Below, in pieces: positions 1 to 11,916 of a stretch of DNA of 12,728 bases. Every line of letters starts with the position of its first letter. Position 1 is the stretch's first letter. The notes beneath the pieces are model-generated. The model ran no database searches. It was not told the origin of the DNA and worked only from the letters and a program-made list of their open reading frames with translations. The stretch is taken from assembly GCA_029259835.1 (NCBI GenBank), contig JAJDEL010000742.1, forward strand, positions 1-12,728, given 5' to 3'. Source of the stretch: Planctomicrobium sp. GTDB lineage: Bacteria > Planctomycetota > Planctomycetia > Planctomycetales > Planctomycetaceae. The translations under genes were made by a program, and so were the position numbers.

Positions 1-999
1 GTCGACCAACAGAAATCCCTTGCCGTCATTCGTGACTTGCGGCATGGATGCAAACCCACCGGTACTGGTTAATCGCCGTTGCGACCCATCGCTCAAGTCA
101 CACAGGAATAAATCTTGGTCAGCACCTTTCAATACCACGACCCTATGTTCTGGTCCACCGAACACGATGGCTGCCCATCCATCATCCAGATGCGTGTCGA
201 TTTGTTCTTGAAAATCCCACAGCCAGATTTCCCGTTCGCCATATGGTGTCGACCCGGCCTTGGGGCGAGTCGTCACGAGATATCGGCCATCTCGCGAGAT
301 CTGGAGTGGCATTCCACGAGCAGAAATGTCCATCTTCGCGTCACGTTTATCACTAAGCTTAAGCGTCCGAAGGGTATCCAAGTCTTCTGTGTAGACGACA
401 ACGTCTCGACGAACTGACATCACTGCCGCAATGCCGACATCCTGTAAGGCGCCTGCGTCAGACTCCATGTCTAGCAATTTGACGGAAATGATTCTCCCCC
501 CGTGACCAAACCGCGAAACGTTTGAACGAGTTAAAATCAGATAACGACCATCAGATGATAACTGAACTGGGTCGTCAAGAACGCGTCCGAATGTCAGTTG
601 CGTTGACTCGCTACCATCGCCCTTCATTGACCAGATATGGCGTAAGCCGCCCTCTTCTTTCGAAAAAACAACTTTGTCTCCAGTAGCCGCGAACAGCGGT
701 GAAGCTTCGAAATCGTTCGATGTCGTCAGCTGGACTGGTGATTCACCAGCTTTTACGAGCGTATAAATATCGCCGTGGCCCGTGCTTGGCGATGCGAAAT
801 AGATCTTTTCGTGAATCGATCTACCTGATGGAGAGGCTGTCACAAACATACCACCGGACGTAAAGTGCTTCCAAGAATCCTCCCCGCCTTCCCCCCCGAC
901 AAAGGACCAGGCAGGCATAATTTGCAAAATCGCGGCGGTGATACACATTCCGACTGTCGCCAATACGGCTGCCGCCACCAGTACCGTACGAGGCTTCAT
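1..999 (-). CDS. TolB/WD40-like beta-propeller protein, exported or membrane-anchored (3' end outside window)
   Basis: The first 333 codons of a minus-strand gene are open from an ATG at 999 to the left edge with no stop, so the C-terminus is missing. Residues about 5-30 form one hydrophobic segment (TVLVAAAVLATVG...), a signal peptide or N-terminal anchor. After it come PD40-type propeller blades: 'GDIYTL..G..PVQLT', then 'SPLFAATGDKVVFS', 'HIWSMKGDGSESTQLT', 'VQLSSDGRYLILT', 'ISRDGRYLVTT', 'EIWLWDF' and 'DLFLCDLSDGSQRRLT'. This blade pattern is known from TolB and related periplasmic propellers, and it usually supports protein binding rather than catalysis. A GGAAAG sequence about 8 bases upstream of the ATG fits as a ribosome binding site. 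It is not a Pal-linked TolB that I can recognise, and no tol-pal genes are in view. The family call is firm; the function is unknown. Confidence 0.8.
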   Translation of the reverse strand, partial: MKPRTVLVAAAVLATVGMCITAAILQIMPAWSFVGGEGGEDSWKHFTSGGMFVTASPSGRSIHEKIYFASPSTGHGDIYTLVKAGESPVQLTTSNDFEASPLFAATGDKVVFSKEEGGLRHIWSMKGDGSESTQLTFGRVLDDPVQLSSDGRYLILTRSNVSRFGHGGRIISVKLLDMESDAGALQDVGIAAVMSVRRDVVVYTEDLDTLRTLKLSDKRDAKMDISARGMPLQISRDGRYLVTTRPKAGSTPYGEREIWLWDFQEQIDTHLDDGWAAIVFGGPEHRVVVLKGADQDLFLCDLSDGSQRRLTSTGGFASMPQVTNDGKGFLLVD

Positions 1000-1427
1000 A
1001 GTCAATCACTTTCCGAAATCTAGAAGGTCGAGACGTGTCGACTGAGTTTCACTGTCAGAAAAACGTTGTTTGTATTTACCGATTCATTGTATGACAAACA
1101 TCGCAACCCACTTGGGTGGTCCCGGTAGATTTTTCTTTCGAGGCGGCATAGCCGTGTGAAGCTGCTGTCAGGCTTCCTGTTTTGCATCATCCCTGGGTGC
1201 ATCACGTACGTCGATTCTAGAGTGAATGACCTGAACATCAACGAAGTGTCAAAGTTCCTAAAAGCGAGGTAGGTCAGGCTGTGCTTGATGATGCTTGATC
1301 CTCATCCACGTTGGTCGTTTTCTCCCCAATCGAGTTGGCTCACACGAGCCGTCAGATAGAACCTGACCTACTTCACTGTTCGAGAAGTTCTACAGCAATC
1401 GAAATCGATTACACAAATTTTAATATC
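1000..1427. other. gene-free intergenic region with REP-like repeat
   Basis: I find no convincing gene here. The longest minus-strand open frame, about 1020-1241, begins only at a TTG/ATG pair without a ribosome binding site and has no recognisable family character. The stretch holds the imperfect inverted repeat listed separately (1266-1374) and a small palindrome AATCGAAATCGATT at 1397-1410, close to the 3' end of the minus-strand gene that stops at 1428. Promoter signals for the propeller gene at 999 should lie in 1000-1100, but I could not pick a good -35/-10 pair. Confidence 0.5.
1266..1374. repeat. REP-like imperfect inverted repeat
   Basis: GAGGTAGGTCAGG (1266-1278) and CCTGACCTACTTC (1362-1374) are inverted copies matching at 12 of 13 positions, with the inner 10 perfect, separated by 83 bases. 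Inside is a smaller hairpin GGCT-CACACG-AGCC (1337-1350). From memory, 'GTAGGTCAGG...' palindromes are scattered between genes in several planctomycete genomes. Whether this is a decayed mobile palindromic repeat is inference. Confidence 0.45.
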
Positions 1428-1991
1428 TCACTTTTTGATTCTTCGACCTGATTGATAAAGAGTTTTGGTGGGCTCGAACGCTAGTACTTTGAATGTCTGA
1501 AAAGAGTCATCAAGTTTCAACATGAAAAGAGTTGAATTGAGTTTTAAAATCACAACTCCTGGTTCTATTACCTGCCAGGCCCCGTTGTTCACTTTATTCG
1601 TTGAAACAGTTCCATCACTCTCAAAAGAAAGCTGGTCGGGGTCATTCGTTCTGTTCCACGTATATCGCGAATTTCCTACTGCTTGCTCAGTTGCATACAA
1701 TTTGTCGGTTCGGTCACTTAACACGAGTTCTTTCTCGATCAGTGCGATGGCTCTTTTGATTCGGAGAGCTTCGTTAAGGTCTCCGTCTTTCGTAACAGTC
1801 ACCTCAGCTGACTTCAACTTCTTCAGGTAGTCGCGTCGTGCTCTCAGCATTGTGTTGTGATAATCTTTAGCTGCGGCTCTTGCTCGGGAACTTCGAAAGT
1901 TTTGAGCATTTGCGACTTGGGTTGATGGTGAAGAAATTATCAACACAAACAGGCATACCAAAAATCCCCGGACGATTGGTGTGTATAGCAT
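1428..1991 (-). CDS. secreted coiled-coil plus C-terminal beta-domain protein, function unknown
   Basis: 187 residues. Residues 1-29 are a clear Sec signal peptide: positive start, hydrophobic core FLVCLFVLII, and likely cleavage after ANA (29). Residues about 33-90 are charged and helical (RARAAAKDYHNTMLRARR..., GDLNEALRIKRAIALIEKEL). This resembles a short helical region common in exported planctomycete proteins, where it often precedes a catalytic or binding domain. Residues about 108-185 look all-beta: 'YTWNRTNDPDQLSFESDGTV' followed by alternating strands 'GAWQVIEPGVVILKL' and 'TLFMLKLDDSFQTFKVL', reminiscent of small lipocalin-like domains. The ATG at 1991 follows GGGGAG by about 7 bases. 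The gene lies downstream of rnpB on the same strand but behind its terminator-like end, so it is probably transcribed on its own. The exported location is a firm call; the role is unknown. Confidence 0.82.
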   Translation of the reverse strand: MLYTPIVRGFLVCLFVLIISSPSTQVANAQNFRSSRARAAAKDYHNTMLRARRDYLKKLKSAEVTVTKDGDLNEALRIKRAIALIEKELVLSDRTDKLYATEQAVGNSRYTWNRTNDPDQLSFESDGTVSTNKVNNGAWQVIEPGVVILKLNSTLFMLKLDDSFQTFKVLAFEPTKTLYQSGRRIKK

Positions 1992-3011: not shown

Positions 3012-6000
3012 ATGGACTTCTTTGATCGCCTTGGCGACTTTTTCAATACGGTGACTGCCTTCGTAGAAGGAATTATCCGCAAGTTCTTTGGTTCATCGAA
3101 TGAGCGCGAGATCCGTCGAATTGGGTTTATTCGGGATAAAGACGGGACGACGAAAGTTCAATCTGGCTCTGTCCTGGAGCAGATTAACTCGCTCGAACCT
3201 GAGATGGAGAAGAAAACGGACGCTGAATTGAAGGAAACAACGGACATATTGCGTGCAAAACTTGCCGATGGGCAAACTTTGGACGACATTCTTCCAGAAG
3301 CGTTTGCTTCGGTTCGAGAGTCTGGTCGCCGCAATTTGCACATGCGTCATTACGACGTGCAAATGGTCGGTGGTAACATTTTGCATCAAGGCAAAATCGC
3401 CGAAATGACGACCGGAGAAGGGAAAACTCTCGTGTCATCGCTGCCAGCGTATTTGAACGCTCTCTCTGGCAAAGTTCACATCGTCACCGTCAACGACTAT
3501 CTCGCGAAACGTGACATGGAATGGATGGGACCATTGCACCTTTCCCTGGGACTTACAGTCGGGGCGATACAAGGGCAAATGCGTCCGGCGGAACGTCAGG
3601 TCAATTACGCCTGTGATATCTGCTACGGAACGAACAACGAATTCGGCTTCGATTACCTTCGCGACAACATGAAGCCGACAGCCGAACTTCAAGTGCAAGG
3701 ACCGCTCGATTTTGCCGTCGTCGATGAAATTGACAACATTCTGATCGACGAAGCCCGGACTCCGCTGATCATCTCCGGACCTGCTTACGATGACATCACG
3801 AAGTATCCCAAAGCAGATCGCATCGCTCGTCAACTGGTCCGTGATGTTCATTTTGAAGTGAAGGAAAAAGAACATTCCTGCCATATGACCGACGAAGGAA
3901 TCCGCAAGGCCGAAGAGTTGGCAGGCGTCGAAAGCTTCTACGCTTCCGGAAATATGGAGTGGCCGCACCTAATCGATAATTCGCTCAAGGCACATTATCT
4001 CTATAAACGAGATGTGAATTACATGGTCGTTCAGGACGAAGTGATCATCATTGATGAGCACACCGGACGTCCGATGCCGGGTCGGCAGTGGAGCGACGGT
4101 TTGCATCAAGCGGCGGAAGCGAAGGAAGGCGTTCGCATTAAGGAAGTCAGTCAGACCCTCGCGACGATCACGTTACAGAATTACTTCAAGCTCTACGGCA
4201 AGTTGTGCGGGATGACCGGAACCGCGATGACCGAAGCGAACGAGTTCTACAAAATTTACGGACTCGATGTTGTCGCCGTACCAACGAATCGTCCGATGAA
4301 GCGGAAAAATTTCCAGGATACGATTTATCGATCCGAGCCTGAAAAGTGGCACGCTGTTGTCGATGAAATTACCGAAGTTCATAAAGAAGGAAGACCGATC
4401 CTGGTCGGAACGGTTTCTGTAGAGAAGAGTGAACGGCTCGCTTCGATGCTTTCCAAGCGTGGCGTGAAGCACAACGTCTTGAATGCAAAGAACCACGAAC
4501 GTGAGGCGGAGATCGTCGCTCAAGCTGGTCGCTATGCAGCGGTGACGATCGCAACGAACATGGCTGGTCGTGGTACCGATATTGTCCTCGGTGGAAACCC
4601 GGAGCACATGGCCTGGGATGTCTTGAAAAATAAATATGAGTCGCGCCTGGATGTCCCGAAAATTGAATGGGATGAACTTTCCGACAAAATTGCCGAAGAC
4701 GAAGGGATGAAAGACGACGGGCGAAAAGTCGCTGAACTTGGTGGACTCCACGTTGTCGGCACCGAGCGGCACGATTCACGCCGCATCGACTTGCAGTTGC
4801 GAGGACGTGCTGGTCGTCAGGGAGATCCTGGATCTAGCCGGTTCTTCCTTTCCTTAGAAGACGACCTGATGCGAATTTTCGCTGGTGACAAAGTGAAAGG
4901 AATGCTGACCTGGCTGGGAATGGAAGAAGGCGAAAGCATCGAGCATCCAATGGTCTCCCGGCAAATTCAAAAGGCTCAGAAGAAAGTCGAAGAGCGCCAC
5001 TTTGAGTCGCGGAAAAGCTTGCTTGAATACGACGAAGTGATGGACCATCAACGTAAAGAGGTATACAGCTATCGGCAGGATATTCTTGATGGCATCAACT
5101 GCCGTGATCTGATCGGTGGGATGCTCAATCAGCAGATTGAAAAATGGGCTGGGCAGTTTTTGTCTCGTGAATATCGCTGGGAAACGGCTGCAGCATTTGC
5201 TTCGCAAAACCTGGGACTCGTTGTCGACCCTGAAGCCCTCAGCAACATGGACAAAGATCAGATGATCGACTTCATGAAAGGTGAAGGCATTCGACAAGCA
5301 GAAGTTCTTCTTGAAGACCAGATGACGGAAAACTTGCCAGAAGAAGTCGACCAACGCGACTGGAACTGGCAAACCCTGGCAACATGGGCGAATCGACAAT
5401 TCAACATCAACACGAATGACCGCGAATTGCGCAAGCTCGCTCGCGATGGGATGCCTGATGGAGAAATTGATCGGGACAAAGTCTTTCGCTATCTCAATGA
5501 TCGCGCTGGTGAAGCGATTGACCGCTGGGATTTCAAACCGCTGGACGTCATCCTCGCGGATGATTTTGGGGCGAAACAACTCTCAGGTTGGCTACGCCAT
5601 CAATTTGGCGTTGAGATGTCGGCTGAGGAATTCACCGCATTCGACGAACCGATCGATGCGATTGAGTTCGTGCAACAGCGCGTGCGGGAACGTTACCGCG
5701 AAAAAGAAATTCAGTTTCCGATATTGATTGGGATGAACAAGTACGTCGGCGGACAGCAGAACGACCGTGCTGGTTTAATTGGCTGGGCGAACAGCCGGTT
5801 TGAAACGGATCTTTCTGAAGATAATTTCAAAGGCAAAGAGCGACAACAGGTTGCTGATGTGATGATCGAGCGTAGCGGAAAATTCTTCCCGGCTCCAGAA
5901 ACGCGTGACGAACTACGAACTCTTCTGGATGATGTCTTCACAATTCGACCAGAAGGCGAAGAAGAGGAAGCACGCGACCTGACTCGTCTCCTCACTTTCA

Positions 6001-6572
6001 TGCAGGAGCAGATGCAACTCGAAATCACTGAAGAAGAACTGACTGATCTTGATCCTGTGAAAGGCCGAAACTTGTGCCTTCAAAAAGTGAATGCACGCTT
6101 CCGTCCGGAACTCGGTCATGCGGAGCGGATGCTGCTCATGGAAATGCTCGATCACGCCTGGAAAGAGCATCTCTATTATATGGACCATTTGCGCAGCGGA
6201 ATCGGTCTGGTCGGTTACGCTCAAAAAGATCCAAAGGTCGAATACAAACGCGAAGGGATGAAGGCCTTTGAAGCGATGTGGGATCGCATCGCCGAACAAG
6301 TGACCTCCGCGATCTTCCGTATCGATTCGGAAAGTTCACCAGAATTCCTGGATTCACTCTGGTCGAATGCTTCTGCCCACCACGCTCAGGCGGAATCCGC
6401 AGCAACTGAATTCTCCGGAGAAGTTGAGGAAAGCAGCGGGGGAACTGAACCAGGACAGGAAAACAAAGCGACTGAGCCGATCCGCAACTTCGATGCAAAA
6501 GTCGGTCGCAACGACCCCTGTCCATGCGGCAGTGGAAAGAAATATAAAAAGTGCCACGGTGCGAATGCTTGA
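3012..6572 (+). CDS. secA: preprotein translocase ATPase SecA, with expanded wing region
   Basis: SecA is the motor that drives unfolded preproteins through SecYEG. It has 1186 residues against roughly 840-900 in typical bacteria. Motor motifs are intact: Walker A TGEGKTL (134-140), Walker B VVDEIDN (236-242) with [16 protein letters not shown] (423-428), [13 protein letters not shown] (517-529) and the Q/R-rich [12 protein letters not shown] (596-607). The scaffold starts at [34 protein letters not shown] (split here as residues 648-681). The C-terminal SEC-C zinc motif [13 protein letters not shown] (1170-1182) is complete and should bind SecB-type partners or lipid. Two differences explain the size: an N-terminal amphipathic extension of about 25 residues, and about 250 extra residues at 724-1033, where a roughly 45-residue unit recurs five times. 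ATG at 3012 follows GGAAAGAAG. The gene appears monocistronic. Confidence 0.97.
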
Positions 6573-6860: not shown

Positions 6861-7044
6861 CGTTCCAGCCTAAAATGGTTGTTGTTGAGCGCCTCGGCGC
6901 CACGTCGTTCTACTGTGAATACATTTTGAGTAGTCGGTTTTCGAAGAGCACTCAGTAGTCCATAATGGGATCATACCACTTCGGATCATGTAATAAAGAG
7001 AAAAGTGTTTGGGTCGCCATTATCAAGATTCAAACAATGTCAAT
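6861..7044. promoter_or_regulatory. divergent promoter region between the Cys-rich gene and the GH38-like gene
   Basis: The 184 bases separate two divergent genes. They hold a short palindromic GCGCC-TC-GGCGC (6889-6900) and two direct-repeat pairs: AGTAGTC at 6929-6935 and 6954-6960 (25 bases apart), and GGATCAT at 6968-6974 and 6983-6989 (15 bases apart). These could be regulator sites. I could not choose a convincing promoter pair. Confidence 0.3.
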
Positions 7045-9891
7045 ATGAAATATAATGAGCTGATTGTTCTCGTTCCTTGCCATAGCCTGGAAGATTTCCC
7101 GACTGAGCTTGGAGAAGACGCCGCAGCGAGCTTGCTGAATGCGTTTTCCATTTTGTGGCATCCATCGCTCTTGGCGTCGACTGGTGCGTTTCCACAATGG
7201 GAACGTGCCGACGAATCGTTAACGGTTCAGGCAGATCGACTTGTTGTCGTTCCCAAGCCAAGCGATGATTTGGTGCCAGCGACATGGATCGAACGTGCTC
7301 GCAGGGAAGGGTGCGTCGTCATCAGCGGGGAGCATGAGCGAAAAGCAATGCTCTCGCAGGCGCTCGATCCGCTTGAATTGAGTCAGGATCTTGACGCCGA
7401 TCTTGTCGCTGATTTCCTAGCCTTGGGGACAGTCTATTTGCAAACGGAACTACTGACGCGGCATATGCGGAACTTTAGTCATCTGGATGAATCGCACATG
7501 CAGCGAGAAGCGGTTGCCTCCGCTCAGGCAGCGATTGCGCACGATGCCGAAGCAACTCGCAAACACCTCAGTCACTGCTTTGAAATGTTGCTTGAATGCC
7601 GTGAGCGGTTTTACCCGGTCGGTTGTCATCTCATCGATTTGTGTCTGGTGAATACCGACTTTGCCAGCGATGAACTGAACACTCTGTTGGAGAGTTCCGT
7701 TCCGGTCAATGCTCTCGCAACAGCGGAGGATTGGAAGAAAATTGTTGACAAAGATGCAGCATGGTCCGAGAAAATTCGCGCAGCCGTTGTCAGTGGTTCT
7801 GTTGAACTCATCGGCGGTGAGCAGTCCGAATTTCCAACGCCACTCATGGCACTTGACTCAACGCTGTGGCAGTTGCGGCAAGGAAGGAAGACTCTCAAGC
7901 AATTGTTTGATGCAACACCAACAACCTGGGCGCGAAAGCGTTTTGGGTTAGGGAGTCATCTGCCGCAAATTCTTGATCGCCTCGGTTACAAGTCCGGCAT
8001 TCACTTCGTCATGGACGACGGCATCTACCCGGACGACGAGCAAACGCAAATGCGCTGGGAAGGTTCCGATGGTACCGCAATCGATGCGTTCAGTCGGATT
8101 CCACTCGCCGCTGATAGCGCGAGCAGCTTTTTGCGGTTGCCGATGCGGATGTCCGAATCGATGGACTACGACCATACGGCTGCGGTCGTCTTCGCTCGCT
8201 GGCCGAAAATGCGAACGCCTTGGCTGAACGACCTGCGGCGCGCGGCTGCGTATTCACCTGTGCTGGGTCAGTTCACAACGTTCGCGGATTTCTTTGAAAC
8301 TTCGGATTCGCCTGGCCGGATGTCCGACTTCAAAGCGAGCGGGTATTTTTCGCTCAACTTAATTCAGTCTGTTGCGAAAGAAGAGAAGAACCCGATCAGC
8401 CGCTGGATCGACTACTGGACGCGACGCCGGGAGTTTGAAATCCTCGACTGGTCGCAGCAACTGGTCACTCTCCTCAGCAAAGGCGTCGACAGCCTTTCTG
8501 CAGAGAACGAACTTGAATCTGCAGTTGAAGCCGCTCATCCAGAAGCGAATGAAGAAGTCATCAACGCCGCCGAAGCAACACTTCAAAAACATCAACAGCA
8601 ATCTCACGCGGATCTGACGCGCCTGTTCGCAGCGAAAGGAGAAACCGGGAAAGGACTTTTGATTTTCAATCCGCAATCTTTTTCTCGGAAAACATCGATT
8701 GAATGGCCGGTCGGGAAACCGGGATCAGACAAAGCAATTGTGCATCGACAAATTGAAGACGAGAACAGTTCGGCCCTCGTTGAGTTGCCTCCGTGTGGAT
8801 TTGTCTGGCTCTCCGCTAGTGATTCTCAACCGAATTCGGTCGTTGGAAAAACTCCGCTGGCGGAAGGTTTAACGCTGCGTAACGAAAACTTTGAAGTCTC
8901 TCTGAGTGATGTCACCGGAGGGATTTCAAGAATTGCTACGTATCGGCGTAGTCCCAACCGAATCAGTCAGCAAATCGCATTTCGCTTTCCACAAGAACGG
9001 ACTGTTGTGATTGGCGAAGGTGACGAGCAAGAGTCCTTCAAAACGTATTACTCGTTGATGCAAATGCGTGAGTCGCGCGTCTTGAGTGCTGGTCCCGTTG
9101 TGGGAGCTATTGAAACGGTCGGGGATCTGATCGATGGACAGAACAATCAAATCGTCGCGACTTATCGTCAAGTGACGCGCGTTGTCCGCGGGCGTCCGAA
9201 CGTTGATGTCGAACTCGAACTCGATTTACAAAAGACGCCAACTGGAGACCCTTGGACAAATTACATCGGCTGCCGATTCGCCTGGAAGCATTCGACAGCA
9301 TCGATCACTGGGTCGATGCAGCAAGGTGCTCACCCGATCGGAGACCAGCGCATTGAATCACCTCAGTATCTGGAAATCGCTGATGATGATTTCCGTACGA
9401 CGATCTTAACTCCAGGGTTGCCATTCCATCGCAAGACAGGTGATCGCATGATTGACACTCTACTTGTCACTGAAGGAGAAACGCGTCGGAAGTTTAACTT
9501 CAGCATTGCGGTCGATGTCAAATACCCGATGCAGGCACATCTCGACGCGTTCTCTGAACCGATCATCATTCCAACGGAAACAGCACCTGCCACCGGTGGT
9601 CAGCAAGGTTGGCTCTTTTTCGTCGGTGCCGCGAATGTCTTACTCACCCGTATTTTGACAATGCGTTCAGATGAAAATAATTCGGACAACAATAAAACCG
9701 GATTTATCGTTCGCTTGTTAGAAACAGAAGGACGCACAAAGACATTCCCTTTGAAATGCTTCAGCACTCCAAATGAAGCACGTCAGGTGGACTTCAATGG
9801 AGAGACAGTCCATTCGCTCACGGTTCAAGACGATCAAGTCCTGGTCGAAATCGCACCGTATGAAATCTGCGATATTGAACTGACGTATTAA
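7045..9891 (+). CDS. GH38 (alpha-mannosidase)-like protein lacking catalytic residues; probable pseudoenzyme
   Basis: 948 residues, no signal peptide, so cytoplasmic. The fold order follows GH38: residues about 1-400 a barrel-like domain, 400-530 a helical middle domain, 530-948 beta-sandwich domains ('GKGLLIFNPQSFSRKTSIEWP' split at 536-556, 'LRNENFEVSLSDVTGGISRI' at 611-630, and a closing 'GFIVRLLETEGRTKTFPLK'). The GH38 segment 'GSVELIGGEQ...LWQLRQGRKTLKQLF' then 'WARKRFGLGSHLPQILDRLG' (295-314) lines up with the family's 'W-L-P-D-x-F-G-x-x-x-x-L-P-Q-I-L', but the nucleophile Asp is Lys298. The N-terminal His-x-Asp zinc motif is replaced by PCHSLEDFP, and no HDA-type motif is seen in the middle. 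A sugar-binding or structural role is possible. I chose ATG 7045 over an upstream in-frame TTG at 7009 because MKYNELIVLVP starts the first strand; neither has a strong ribosome binding site. Confidence 0.8.
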   Translation: MKYNELIVLVPCHSLEDFPTELGEDAAASLLNAFSILWHPSLLASTGAFPQWERADESLTVQADRLVVVPKPSDDLVPATWIERARREGCVVISGEHERKAMLSQALDPLELSQDLDADLVADFLALGTVYLQTELLTRHMRNFSHLDESHMQREAVASAQAAIAHDAEATRKHLSHCFEMLLECRERFYPVGCHLIDLCLVNTDFASDELNTLLESSVPVNALATAEDWKKIVDKDAAWSEKIRAAVVSGSVELIGGEQSEFPTPLMALDSTLWQLRQGRKTLKQLFDATPTTWARKRFGLGSHLPQILDRLGYKSGIHFVMDDGIYPDDEQTQMRWEGSDGTAIDAFSRIPLAADSASSFLRLPMRMSESMDYDHTAAVVFARWPKMRTPWLNDLRRAAAYSPVLGQFTTFADFFETSDSPGRMSDFKASGYFSLNLIQSVAKEEKNPISRWIDYWTRRREFEILDWSQQLVTLLSKGVDSLSAENELESAVEAAHPEANEEVINAAEATLQKHQQQSHADLTRLFAAKGETGKGLLIFNPQSFSRKTSIEWPVGKPGSDKAIVHRQIEDENSSALVELPPCGFVWLSASDSQPNSVVGKTPLAEGLTLRNENFEVSLSDVTGGISRIATYRRSPNRISQQIAFRFPQERTVVIGEGDEQESFKTYYSLMQMRESRVLSAGPVVGAIETVGDLIDGQNNQIVATYRQVTRVVRGRPNVDVELELDLQKTPTGDPWTNYIGCRFAWKHSTASITGSMQQGAHPIGDQRIESPQYLEIADDDFRTTILTPGLPFHRKTGDRMIDTLLVTEGETRRKFNFSIAVDVKYPMQAHLDAFSEPIIIPTETAPATGGQQGWLFFVGAANVLLTRILTMRSDENNSDNNKTGFIVRLLETEGRTKTFPLKCFSTPNEARQVDFNGETVHSLTVQDDQVLVEIAPYEICDIELTY

Positions 9892-9897
9892 ATCATG

Positions 9898-9922
9898 CTG
9901 GCTAACCAACCGAGTTAGCCAG
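9898..9922. terminator. hairpin between convergent genes
   Basis: CTGGCTAAC (9898-9906) and GTTAGCCAG (9914-9922) form a perfect 9-bp stem with a 7-base loop. It starts 7 bases after the GH38-like stop and overlaps the last codons and TAG of the minus-strand aminotransferase gene. No strong T-run follows on either side. It probably serves both convergent transcripts. Confidence 0.55.
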
Positions 9923-10795
9923 GTGGTTAACAGTTTTCTTGTAGGCTTCGTCCAGTTTCGAGGCAACGGGACCGACCGTTCCGGTTCCGATTTTTTGTTG
10001 GTCAACCAGTGTGATCGGCAGAATTTCTGTCGTTGTTCCGGTGAGGAAGAGTTCATCGATTTCGCTGAGCTTATTGAGATGCAAGCCTTCTTCACGCATT
10101 GGAAAATGACATTCTTTGGCTAGCTGCATCAAAAGTTTGCGAGTAATCCCTGGCAGGATGTTCTCTTCAAGCGGGGCGGTCAGAATCGTGCCGTTGCGGA
10201 CGCCGAACAGGCTTGACCGGCTCCCTTCAGTGAGCCTTCCGTTTCCGTCGACGAACAGAGCTTCGGCACAGTCGGCTTCGGATGCCGCTTGAGCCGCCAT
10301 GCAGTTTGCCAGCAGATTGACCGACTTGATGTCGCAACGTTTCCAGCGCATGTCATTCAATACGATGACCGAAACGCCTTGCTTTCTGGTGTTGGCGTAC
10401 GGGTCTTCAAAATCTGCGACGTATATCAATTCGTTTGGCTGTGGGGCAGGGACCGGGTACTGATGTGTCCTCGGAGCCACGCCGCGTGTGACCTGAATAT
10501 AGACGATCCCTTCGACGACATCGCTGGCAGCGATGGTCTCACGAGTTCGCTCGCCGATGGCCACGGCATTTGCGGGCAGGCTGATTTTTTCCAGGTTCCG
10601 ACCAAGGCGGGAGACGTGATCTTCGAAGAGAAACGGGCATCCGTTGTAAATACGAATCACTTCGTAGATCGCATCTCCGAATAGGAATGCTCTGTCGAGG
10701 ACCGAGACCTTGACCTCGGACAACGGCATCAACTCGCCGTTCCAATTCGCGAGTGGATCTCGGAGAACTTGTGGGCTCATCTCAGGCTCAGACAT
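9902..10795 (-). CDS. dat: D-amino acid aminotransferase (class IV PLP enzyme)
   Basis: 297 residues, close to the 280-290 of the family. It transfers the amino group between D-amino acids and 2-oxo acids, for example D-Ala plus 2-oxoglutarate to pyruvate plus D-Glu, in the cytoplasm. The sequence tracks Bacillus D-amino acid aminotransferase well: DRAFLFGDAIYEVIRIYNG (34-52), the RGVAPRTHQYP carboxylate-trap motif (R109, H111), RWKRCDIKSVNLL with PLP lysine K157, LTEGSRSSLFG with E190, and LFLTGTTTEILP. The R-x-H motif and CDIKS favour D-specific over branched-chain or lyase members. D-Glu for peptidoglycan is a likely product use. ATG at 10795 shares one base with the TAA of the upstream cyclophilin gene (TAATG), so the two are probably co-transcribed and translationally coupled. 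A branched-chain aminotransferase is the less likely alternative. Confidence 0.88.
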   Translation of the reverse strand: MSEPEMSPQVLRDPLANWNGELMPLSEVKVSVLDRAFLFGDAIYEVIRIYNGCPFLFEDHVSRLGRNLEKISLPANAVAIGERTRETIAASDVVEGIVYIQVTRGVAPRTHQYPVPAPQPNELIYVADFEDPYANTRKQGVSVIVLNDMRWKRCDIKSVNLLANCMAAQAASEADCAEALFVDGNGRLTEGSRSSLFGVRNGTILTAPLEENILPGITRKLLMQLAKECHFPMREEGLHLNKLSEIDELFLTGTTTEILPITLVDQQKIGTGTVGPVASKLDEAYKKTVNHLANSVG

Positions 10796-11916
10796 TATTC
10801 AGACTGGGTCTCCGGGACGTATTCGTGATTCCGCTTGCGAGTCACTGTCGCTGAGATGATTTCATCATTTTTTTGTAAAGCGCGAGCGACGTCCAAGCCT
10901 TCAATGACCCGTCCGAAGACGGTGTGGACACTCGTTGGAGTAACCTCTCGGTCGAGGTGCGGCGTCGGCAAATGAGTAATGAAGAACTGAGAACCGCCTG
11001 TGTCCCTACCAGCATGTGCCATACTCAATGAGCCTGAAAAGTGACGTCGGGCATTGGGGCTATATGCTTCACATTTAATGTTGTAGCCAGGGCCTCCTGA
11101 GCCAGCACGCTGCGGATTCGTCTTGCTGAGCGGGCAGCCTCCTTGAGCCATAAAGTTCGGGATGACCCGGTGGAACTTCAAACCATCGTAGAATTTCTTT
11201 TCTACGAGACTCACAAAGTTCGCAACGGTGTTGGGGGCTTCGTTTTCAAAAAGTTCGATAACAATATCACCCCGACTGGTTTCGAATTTGACCCGAGGAA
11301 GTTGCTCGTCTCCTTGAGCGGCGTCCTCTTGAGCACGAATTGCCTGTTCCTTTTTCCAGTATTCGATGTATGATTTTGAAGTTTCCAGATAGCGTCCTCC
11401 GAGGTTACCTAAGAGTTGACCATTTTCTTTCGCCAAACTGAGGATTCGGTTTGAATCTTCAAAATCATGTTCTGCGAAACTGGCGATTCCGGAGAAGTTG
11501 ACAGCGTTATCATTTTTCGGATCCGCTTTGAGAATCGCTGCTGAAACTCTCTTCGTCGTTGGAAAGTCATTTCGGCTATAGGAATACTGCACGACCTCAT
11601 CGGCAATTTCGATCGTTGTTTTGTCTTTTGGGGTTTTCTCGAGTTGCCCCGCAACTTGCTGTGTCAATTGAGGGAAAATTTCTTTCTGCAAACGTGTTGC
11701 AATTTGCGTGAATTCAGTGGCAAGCTCATTCCGCTCCTCAGGTTTTGCGGTTTGAGCTTTTGCCTGGAGTTCTTTGAGTCGATCAAACGATTCCGTTCTG
11801 ACTTTAACGAGCTGCTCCCAAGACAGTTCTTTTTTTGCTTCCTGCGCGATGCTCACGTTAGAAAAGACAAACACAGCCAGTGTGAGTAGGGCTGCACAAT
11901 GGTGGCGAAACAACAT
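10795..11916 (-). CDS. exported cyclophilin-type peptidyl-prolyl isomerase with N-terminal helical domain
   Basis: 373 residues. Residues 1-24 are a signal peptide ([15 protein letters not shown], cleavage before Q25), so it acts outside the cytoplasmic membrane on exported proteins. Residues about 30-200 are helical and charged, partly TPR-like ('[22 protein letters not shown]'), a possible substrate or partner-binding module. Residues about 207-362 are the cyclophilin domain: [37 protein letters not shown] with catalytic R250, and [25 protein letters not shown] with F311/F312. The tryptophan that confers cyclosporin sensitivity in human CypA is His320, as in many bacterial members. ATG at 11916 follows GGAG by 6 bases. 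It is the first gene of a two-gene unit with the aminotransferase; the biological link between the two is unclear. Confidence 0.9.

Follow-up and report, generated by a model that had tools for sequence, protein, structure and literature searches.

A SecA motor protein with five tandem units in its helical wing from a planctomycete

INTRODUCTION

Bacterial protein export depends on a single essential motor, SecA. The secA gene considered here lies in a window of 12,728 nucleotides (the whole stretch of DNA that was analyzed) from Planctomicrobium sp. A sequence-only reading of this window had proposed that the helical wing of the encoded SecA is expanded into five tandem repeats of one helical unit. 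What are the additional residues, where did they come from, and what might they do?

RESULTS

A canonical SecA with a long helical wing

The Pfam domains SecA_DEAD, P-loop_SecA, SecA_PP_bind, and SecA_SW were detected in this order in the window SecA, together with SEC-C, and the protein scored above the equivalog cut-offs of PRK12904 (1069 bits; cut-off, 814) and TIGR00963 (1020 bits; cut-off, 800). By the Pfam and NCBIfam models, the protein is a canonical SecA (SecA1). Its presumed role is ATP-driven preprotein export with SecY, the gene for which is present in the genome. The SEC-C zinc-binding tail, which is optional in SecAs, is retained. The gene is laid out as follows.

3012..6572 (+): secA, canonical SecA with an expanded helical wing; open reading frame of 1186 amino acids, assigned by domain and equivalog models
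4947..5160 (+): first scaffold helix and wing entry helix, residues 646-716 (model helices 7-53 and 58-77)
5166..5330 (+): wing unit U1, residues 719-773, anchor F729
5355..5549 (+): wing unit U2, residues 782-846, anchor W792
5559..5726 (+): wing unit U3, residues 850-905, anchor W860
5754..5918 (+): wing unit U4, residues 915-969, anchor W925
5967..6131 (+): wing unit U5, residues 986-1040, anchor F996; runs into the returning scaffold helix
6105..6332 (+): returning scaffold helices including the DHAWKEH landmark, residues 1032-1107 (model helices 393-425 and 435-468)
6507..6560 (+): SEC-C zinc-binding tail, residues 1166-1183, assigned by Pfam

The proposed repeat region, residues 724-1033, corresponds to positions 5181-6110. 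In a phmmer comparison with solved structures, residues 14-670 and 750-831 of Escherichia coli SecA were aligned to residues 52-703 and 1033-1115 of the window SecA, and the unaligned middle between the two blocks was ~80 residues long in E. coli SecA versus ~330 in the window SecA. We also measured the distance between the two scaffold landmarks that flank the wing. It was 365 residues in the window SecA, in agreement with the ~365 of the sequence-only reading and outside the range of a one-unit wing (about 110 to 125 residues). The distance was 356-384 residues in all 23 planctomycete rows, the window included, whereas it was 113-122 residues in 52 of 56 non-planctomycete SecAs (those with both landmarks found by pattern).

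Five copies of one unit within the wing

The sequence-only reading had named 15 anchor residues, an aromatic residue followed by two hydrophobic residues at fixed distances in each of five segments, and all 15 were exact. As a sign of repetition, this spacing held up in part. A chain of five matches at a 60- to 75-residue spacing was obtained in 0 of 2000 shuffles (the longest shuffled chain, of four, occurred once), but the three-residue pattern itself is loose, with six matches in the stretch (an extra one at residue 886) in place of the five claimed, against a shuffled mean of 2.0.

The decisive tests were made on profiles. The stretch was cut into five, and a profile of each unit was prepared from 23 rows, the window SecA and 22 relatives (L003 and L019 being partial SecAs); L023 and L001 (partial) were left out of the alignments. 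In hhalign comparisons, all 10 pairs of units matched, with probabilities of 91-97% and scores of 33.3-48.3, whereas the best of 90 controls (the five units compared with each of 18 windows, 64 residues long, from other parts of the alignment) scored 18.6. The profile self-comparison suggested as a check thus returned significant self-similarity. With a unit HMM built from 80 units in 16 SecAs, all five units of the window SecA were detected at 35.7-53.0 bits, compared with a top score of 8.3 bits on shuffled wings (five shuffles of each of 177 wings). Single-sequence phmmer searches of unit against unit gave a weak signal that points in the same direction as the profile tests (U1/U2 and U3/U5 at E values of 1.5e-4 to 2.7e-4; remaining pairs weaker).

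The units differ in how well they are conserved. Within the class of the window, mean identity over 23 core columns, fixed on a single MAFFT alignment, was highest for U2 (50.7%), 40.5% for U4, and lowest for U5 (24.2%). When units of this class were compared over the same fixed columns with those of the other five-unit families, the best-matching unit was the same-numbered one for just three of the five.

Residues 640-1115 of the window SecA were modeled with AlphaFold2 (mean pLDDT, 90.1; pTM, 0.80), and the units were compared by secondary structure and confidence values. An identical layout was predicted for all five: helix A, a 5-residue loop, a short helix, and helix B, with helix A starting at model residues 82, 147, 213, 280, and 352. 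In fold searches with the wing model, SecA was ranked first, possibly because of the scaffold helices; the Foldseek TM-scores were low (0.13-0.18 in the first 20 rows), and in the fold library pdb_via, SecA alone ranked above unrelated rows.

These data bear on the possibility that the extra residues form a single unrelated helical fold and that their repeat is a chance spacing of aromatic and hydrophobic residues. The looseness of the anchor pattern would fit such a reading, as would the weak resemblance of single units to acyl carrier domains, which are helical but unrelated. Neither accounts for unit pairs that far exceed their controls or for five equal helix layouts, and, as described below, every unit also matches the single wing of other SecAs. 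On these three grounds, the unrelated fold was ruled out as scarcely credible, and the predicted secondary structure likewise bore out the sequence-only reading against it.

The repeated unit is that of the ordinary wing

The canonical SecA helical wing (Pfam PF07516, SecA_SW; Bacillus subtilis 3jv2 and 6itc; E. coli 2fsf) has one unit, in contrast to the five found here. We compared the units with such single wings by profile-profile comparison, on which the tie between them rests. Against the single wings from 61 other Planctomycetota SecAs, each unit profile (49 rows) gave a match of 96-98%, and the matches fell at the position of the single wing unit itself (columns 42-104). The score was best for U3 (72.4) and lowest for U1 (45.8). 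The Planctomycetota single wing in turn matched the wing of 55 non-planctomycete SecAs at 99.8%. When the units were compared directly with the non-planctomycete wing, the probabilities were 91% for U3, 86% for U2, 51% for U4, 46% for U5, and 16% for U1. The canonical profile of the unit-pair and landmark analysis included at least one stray row (L026), which was excluded afterwards. As judged by these profiles, U3 is the unit nearest the ordinary single wing unit.

Simpler searches gave little. The sequence-only reading had named a single matching segment in the E. coli wing, and this was unconfirmed by sequence: of the 13 hits of the unit profile among PDB sequences at E <= 10, none was a SecA chain. 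In a Pfam search of 38 units, SecA_SW was found in none and PP-binding weakly in 3. The unit HMM gave two weak matches above 0 bits in 22 of 116 single wings.

Together with the predicted secondary structure and the surveys described below, in which outgroups have one unit, these comparisons uphold the proposed internal duplication. The helical wing, normally one ~65-residue unit between two long scaffold helices, was almost certainly expanded to five units by tandem duplication within the gene. The product would be a five-unit helical repeat arm ~250 residues longer than the usual wing.

Distribution and origin of the five-unit wing

We searched 392 Planctomycetota genomes with a 468-position scaffold-plus-wing profile at E <= 1e-60. 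Matches were obtained in 81 genomes, of which 80 carry the five-unit wing and one (G386) belongs to family f100, described below. The five-unit genomes matched in one piece in 78 cases, in two pieces of one frame in G361, and on two contigs in G295. All 40 sampled genomes of the class of the window had the five-unit wing; the other 40 fall into eight families (f7, f51, f60, f67, f73, f78, f89, and f96), which we infer to be Phycisphaerae-like. All five units were retained in every sampled member of this clade.

SecA was also read from 100 genomes across the families, and the wing could be measured at 99 of the 100 loci (L121 has no second landmark). Wing length was <=125 residues in 61 SecAs, 127-255 in 8, 339-386 in 27, and 410-770 in 3. 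With an ordinary-length wing in 61 of 99 Planctomycetota SecAs, the expansion is not a trait of planctomycetes as a whole. In Omnitrophota, 134 of 145 genomes matched the profile; among the matches listed, the flanks alone were covered, with a best score of 119.8 bits.

In a SecA tree built without the wing (113 cores, 709 columns), all 35 five-unit rows lay on one side of a branch with an SH-aLRT value of 99; in a smaller wing-free tree (45 rows), the value for the five-unit branch was 92. Both trees are of a quick kind, without bootstrap. This topology indicates that the five-unit arm had a single origin in the common ancestor of the class of the window and the eight other sampled families.

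Other expanded wings in Planctomycetota

Still longer wings were found in 6 of 9 genomes of the class that contains families f15, f79, and f68. The wing has 769-770 residues in f15 and 790 and 828 residues in f79, and f68 matches the giant-wing profile over its whole length. The six SecAs (L108, L109, L201, L202, L204, and L187) have open frames of up to 1768 amino acids and wings of ~770-830 residues; L187 lies on a short contig and is fragmentary. In the giant-wing profile (six rows), ten unit matches were located at 54, 113, 178, 253, 324, 405, 475, 555, 630, and 703, with scores of 20.7-57.5 and the first three marginal; the 20 column-shuffled controls scored <=17.8. The first half of the giant wing aligned in register with the second over ~360 columns with a score of 151 (next, shifted alignment, 82). 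The f100 wing (410 and 407 residues) scored 183 and 220 against the two halves (next, 55). Because the halves and the f100 wing align in register, the giant wing may be regarded as two copies of a five-unit block that is also present in f100. On this reading, the giant wing would contain ten units, of which three are marginal. Four units of the f100 wing were detected directly, and its fifth was not detected directly by the unit search. In the class around f100, the long wing was present in both f100 genomes, and the other genomes matched by the flanks alone among the matches listed. AlphaFold2 predicted a mostly helical giant wing (six sequences; pLDDT, 84; pTM, 0.74), and in fold searches with this model, the best ten PDB rows and 24 of the first 24 rows were SecAs.

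Wings of 180-255 residues (f27, f80, f81, f82, and f11) gave two unit matches each, of mixed strength, with a very weak third in f11. No clear second unit was found in f50 (174 residues, one unit), f55 (137 residues), or f70 (127 residues), which gave weak second hits at most. Across the relatives, the profile matches thus point to wing copy numbers of one, apparently two or three, five, and ten. A wing-like unit was also found at another site: L163 (G131, f75) has one inside an NBD2 loop (residues 571-615; 32.2 bits) besides its ordinary wing, the sole match above 10 bits outside a wing among 177 SecAs with landmarks.

The expanded wings of the clade of the window, of f100, and of the f15/f79/f68 class could be separate gains, or they could descend from one old five-unit wing in Planctomycetota that was lost many times. 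The five-unit wing aligned in register with the giant halves (91.7 and 102.7) and with the f100 wing (77.6) at higher scores than the best shifted alignments (43.9, 71.9, and 45.6), which would fit common descent, although higher in-register scores are partly expected since such alignments are longer by construction. AU tests also left giant plus f100 (p = 0.166) and five-unit plus f100 (p = 0.235) unrejected as single clades. By contrast, one clade of all three groups was borderline rejected (p-AU = 0.047), the three groups stood on separate branches among single-unit rows in the free trees, and f100 was nested in a clade of single-unit rows with an SH-aLRT value of 99. We consider one old wing with many losses somewhat unlikely.

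A second SecA-like protein and other observations

A second SecA-like protein is encoded in the genome of the window at positions 1-1170 (-) of L002 (G000:C581), where it is cut by the contig end. It contains SecA_DEAD and SecA_PP_bind and is 41% identical to the window SecA over the shared part. It is probably a "secondary SecA_DEAD protein" as in PVC bacteria, a second SecA-like ATPase in which, in the available text of PMC4452313, SecA_SW is described as lacking or largely lacking. The window SecA, with its SecA_SW, is the canonical one and not a protein of this secondary type. Adjoining the second SecA, at positions 1316-1987 (-) of L002, is an open reading frame of 223 amino acids with a ubiquitin-conjugating-enzyme domain (PF00179; E value, 6.6e-10), unusual for a bacterium, and a weak zinc ribbon.

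In the window itself, an open reading frame of 960 amino acids at 7009-9891 (+) has a glycoside hydrolase family 38 N-terminal domain (E value, 1.2e-9), and a class IV aminotransferase gene at 9902-10795 (-) adjoins one for a cyclophilin-type peptidyl-prolyl isomerase at 10795-11916 (-). Among the relatives, the record of L025 bears the title Candidatus Kuenenia stuttgartiensis, which looks wrong for this MAG: the encoded SecA is of the typical planctomycete type with five units and is 59% identical to that of the window.

DISCUSSION

Rearrangements that affect SecA_SW have been reported before. According to the available text of Kamneva et al. 2015 (PMC4452313), they occur in the canonical SecA of Planctomycetes except K. 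stuttgartiensis and are absent from other bacteria among 99 genomes. That description is at the Pfam level, and in the same text the repeat, the unit, the copy number, and the ten-unit form are not described. In the open-licence literature, a scope that most subscription papers fall outside, we found no description of wing repeats in SecA. The conserved signature inserts of thermophile SecAs (50 amino acids in NBD1 and 76 in NBD2) are likewise large and lineage specific, but in the accessible part of PMC7023208 they are placed in other domains and are not wing repeats, unlike the insertion in the window SecA.

The usual layout is preserved in the ATPase, preprotein-binding, and scaffold parts and in the SEC-C tail, so the motor itself should operate as it does in other bacteria. 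In the available text of PMC6123708, the preprotein-binding domain (PBD) shifts towards the wing upon ATP binding. We tentatively favor a mechanism in which the five-unit arm would provide a longer acidic protein-docking surface beside the preprotein clamp. The arm would engage a preprotein, a cytosolic factor, or a second SecA, ahead of hand-over to SecY. The arm of the window SecA carries a net charge of -28. Values run from -12 to -40 (median, -21) in 49 five-unit wings and from -16 to +1 (median, -10) in single wings; per residue, the five-unit wing is not more acidic. No extension of SecY paralleling the arm was found, with SecY open frames of 452-610 amino acids in 22 five-unit genomes and 442-541 amino acids in 21 others.

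Three other roles, or none at all, were weighed against this docking surface. The arm could be a membrane-contact or membrane-shaping device linked to the unusual planctomycete envelope, and the wing does contact the lipid surface in a solved SecA-SecY complex, as given in the available text of PMC6599042. We regard such a device as improbable. The negative charge of the arm argues against it just weakly, being similar per residue to that of single wings. Many Planctomycetota lack the five-unit wing, and Kamneva et al. 2015, in the available text, did not find the SecA_SW rearrangement to be associated with intracellular membranes, yet gave a phi correlation of 0.76 (PMC4452313). An on-board holdase that substitutes for the chaperone SecB is unlikely as well. 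No SecB was detected in the 39 genomes searched from the class of the window, while the E. coli positive control was matched. However, it was detected in just 3 of 99 Planctomycetota genomes regardless of wing length. Since SecB is nearly absent phylum-wide, its absence does not track the arm, and SecB replacement as the specific cause of the arm is weakened. The three SecB matches (G010, G044, and G096) were all partial, and G010 is a giant-wing genome.

The arm might also have grown neutrally, through tolerated duplications of a surface unit that later became locked in although the copies served no function of their own. Longer wings in several lineages, some of them (f50, f55, and f70) lacking a clear second unit, would be expected from such growth, as would the divergence of units to ~20% identity and the poor conservation of U5 and U1. 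It is harder to reconcile with the retention of five units throughout the sampled clade and with the good conservation of U2 and U4 within the class, and we consider it a fairly unlikely account. A protein-docking arm next to the clamp is the role we put forward, as a possibility. Taken as a whole, an explanation that combines a five-unit arm produced by duplication, a single origin, and a docking-arm mechanism is probable.

More speculatively, the wing unit may be a modular repeat that has been multiplied in Planctomycetota SecA, with an arm that would dock or hold substrates or a partner and a length that might tune export. The natural series of SecAs, in which one motor carries from one to ten wing units as read from the profiles, would offer a direct handle on the role of the wing. 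It also shows that a machine both essential and in other respects constant is able to acquire a repeat arm, and that such an arm can persist throughout a large clade.
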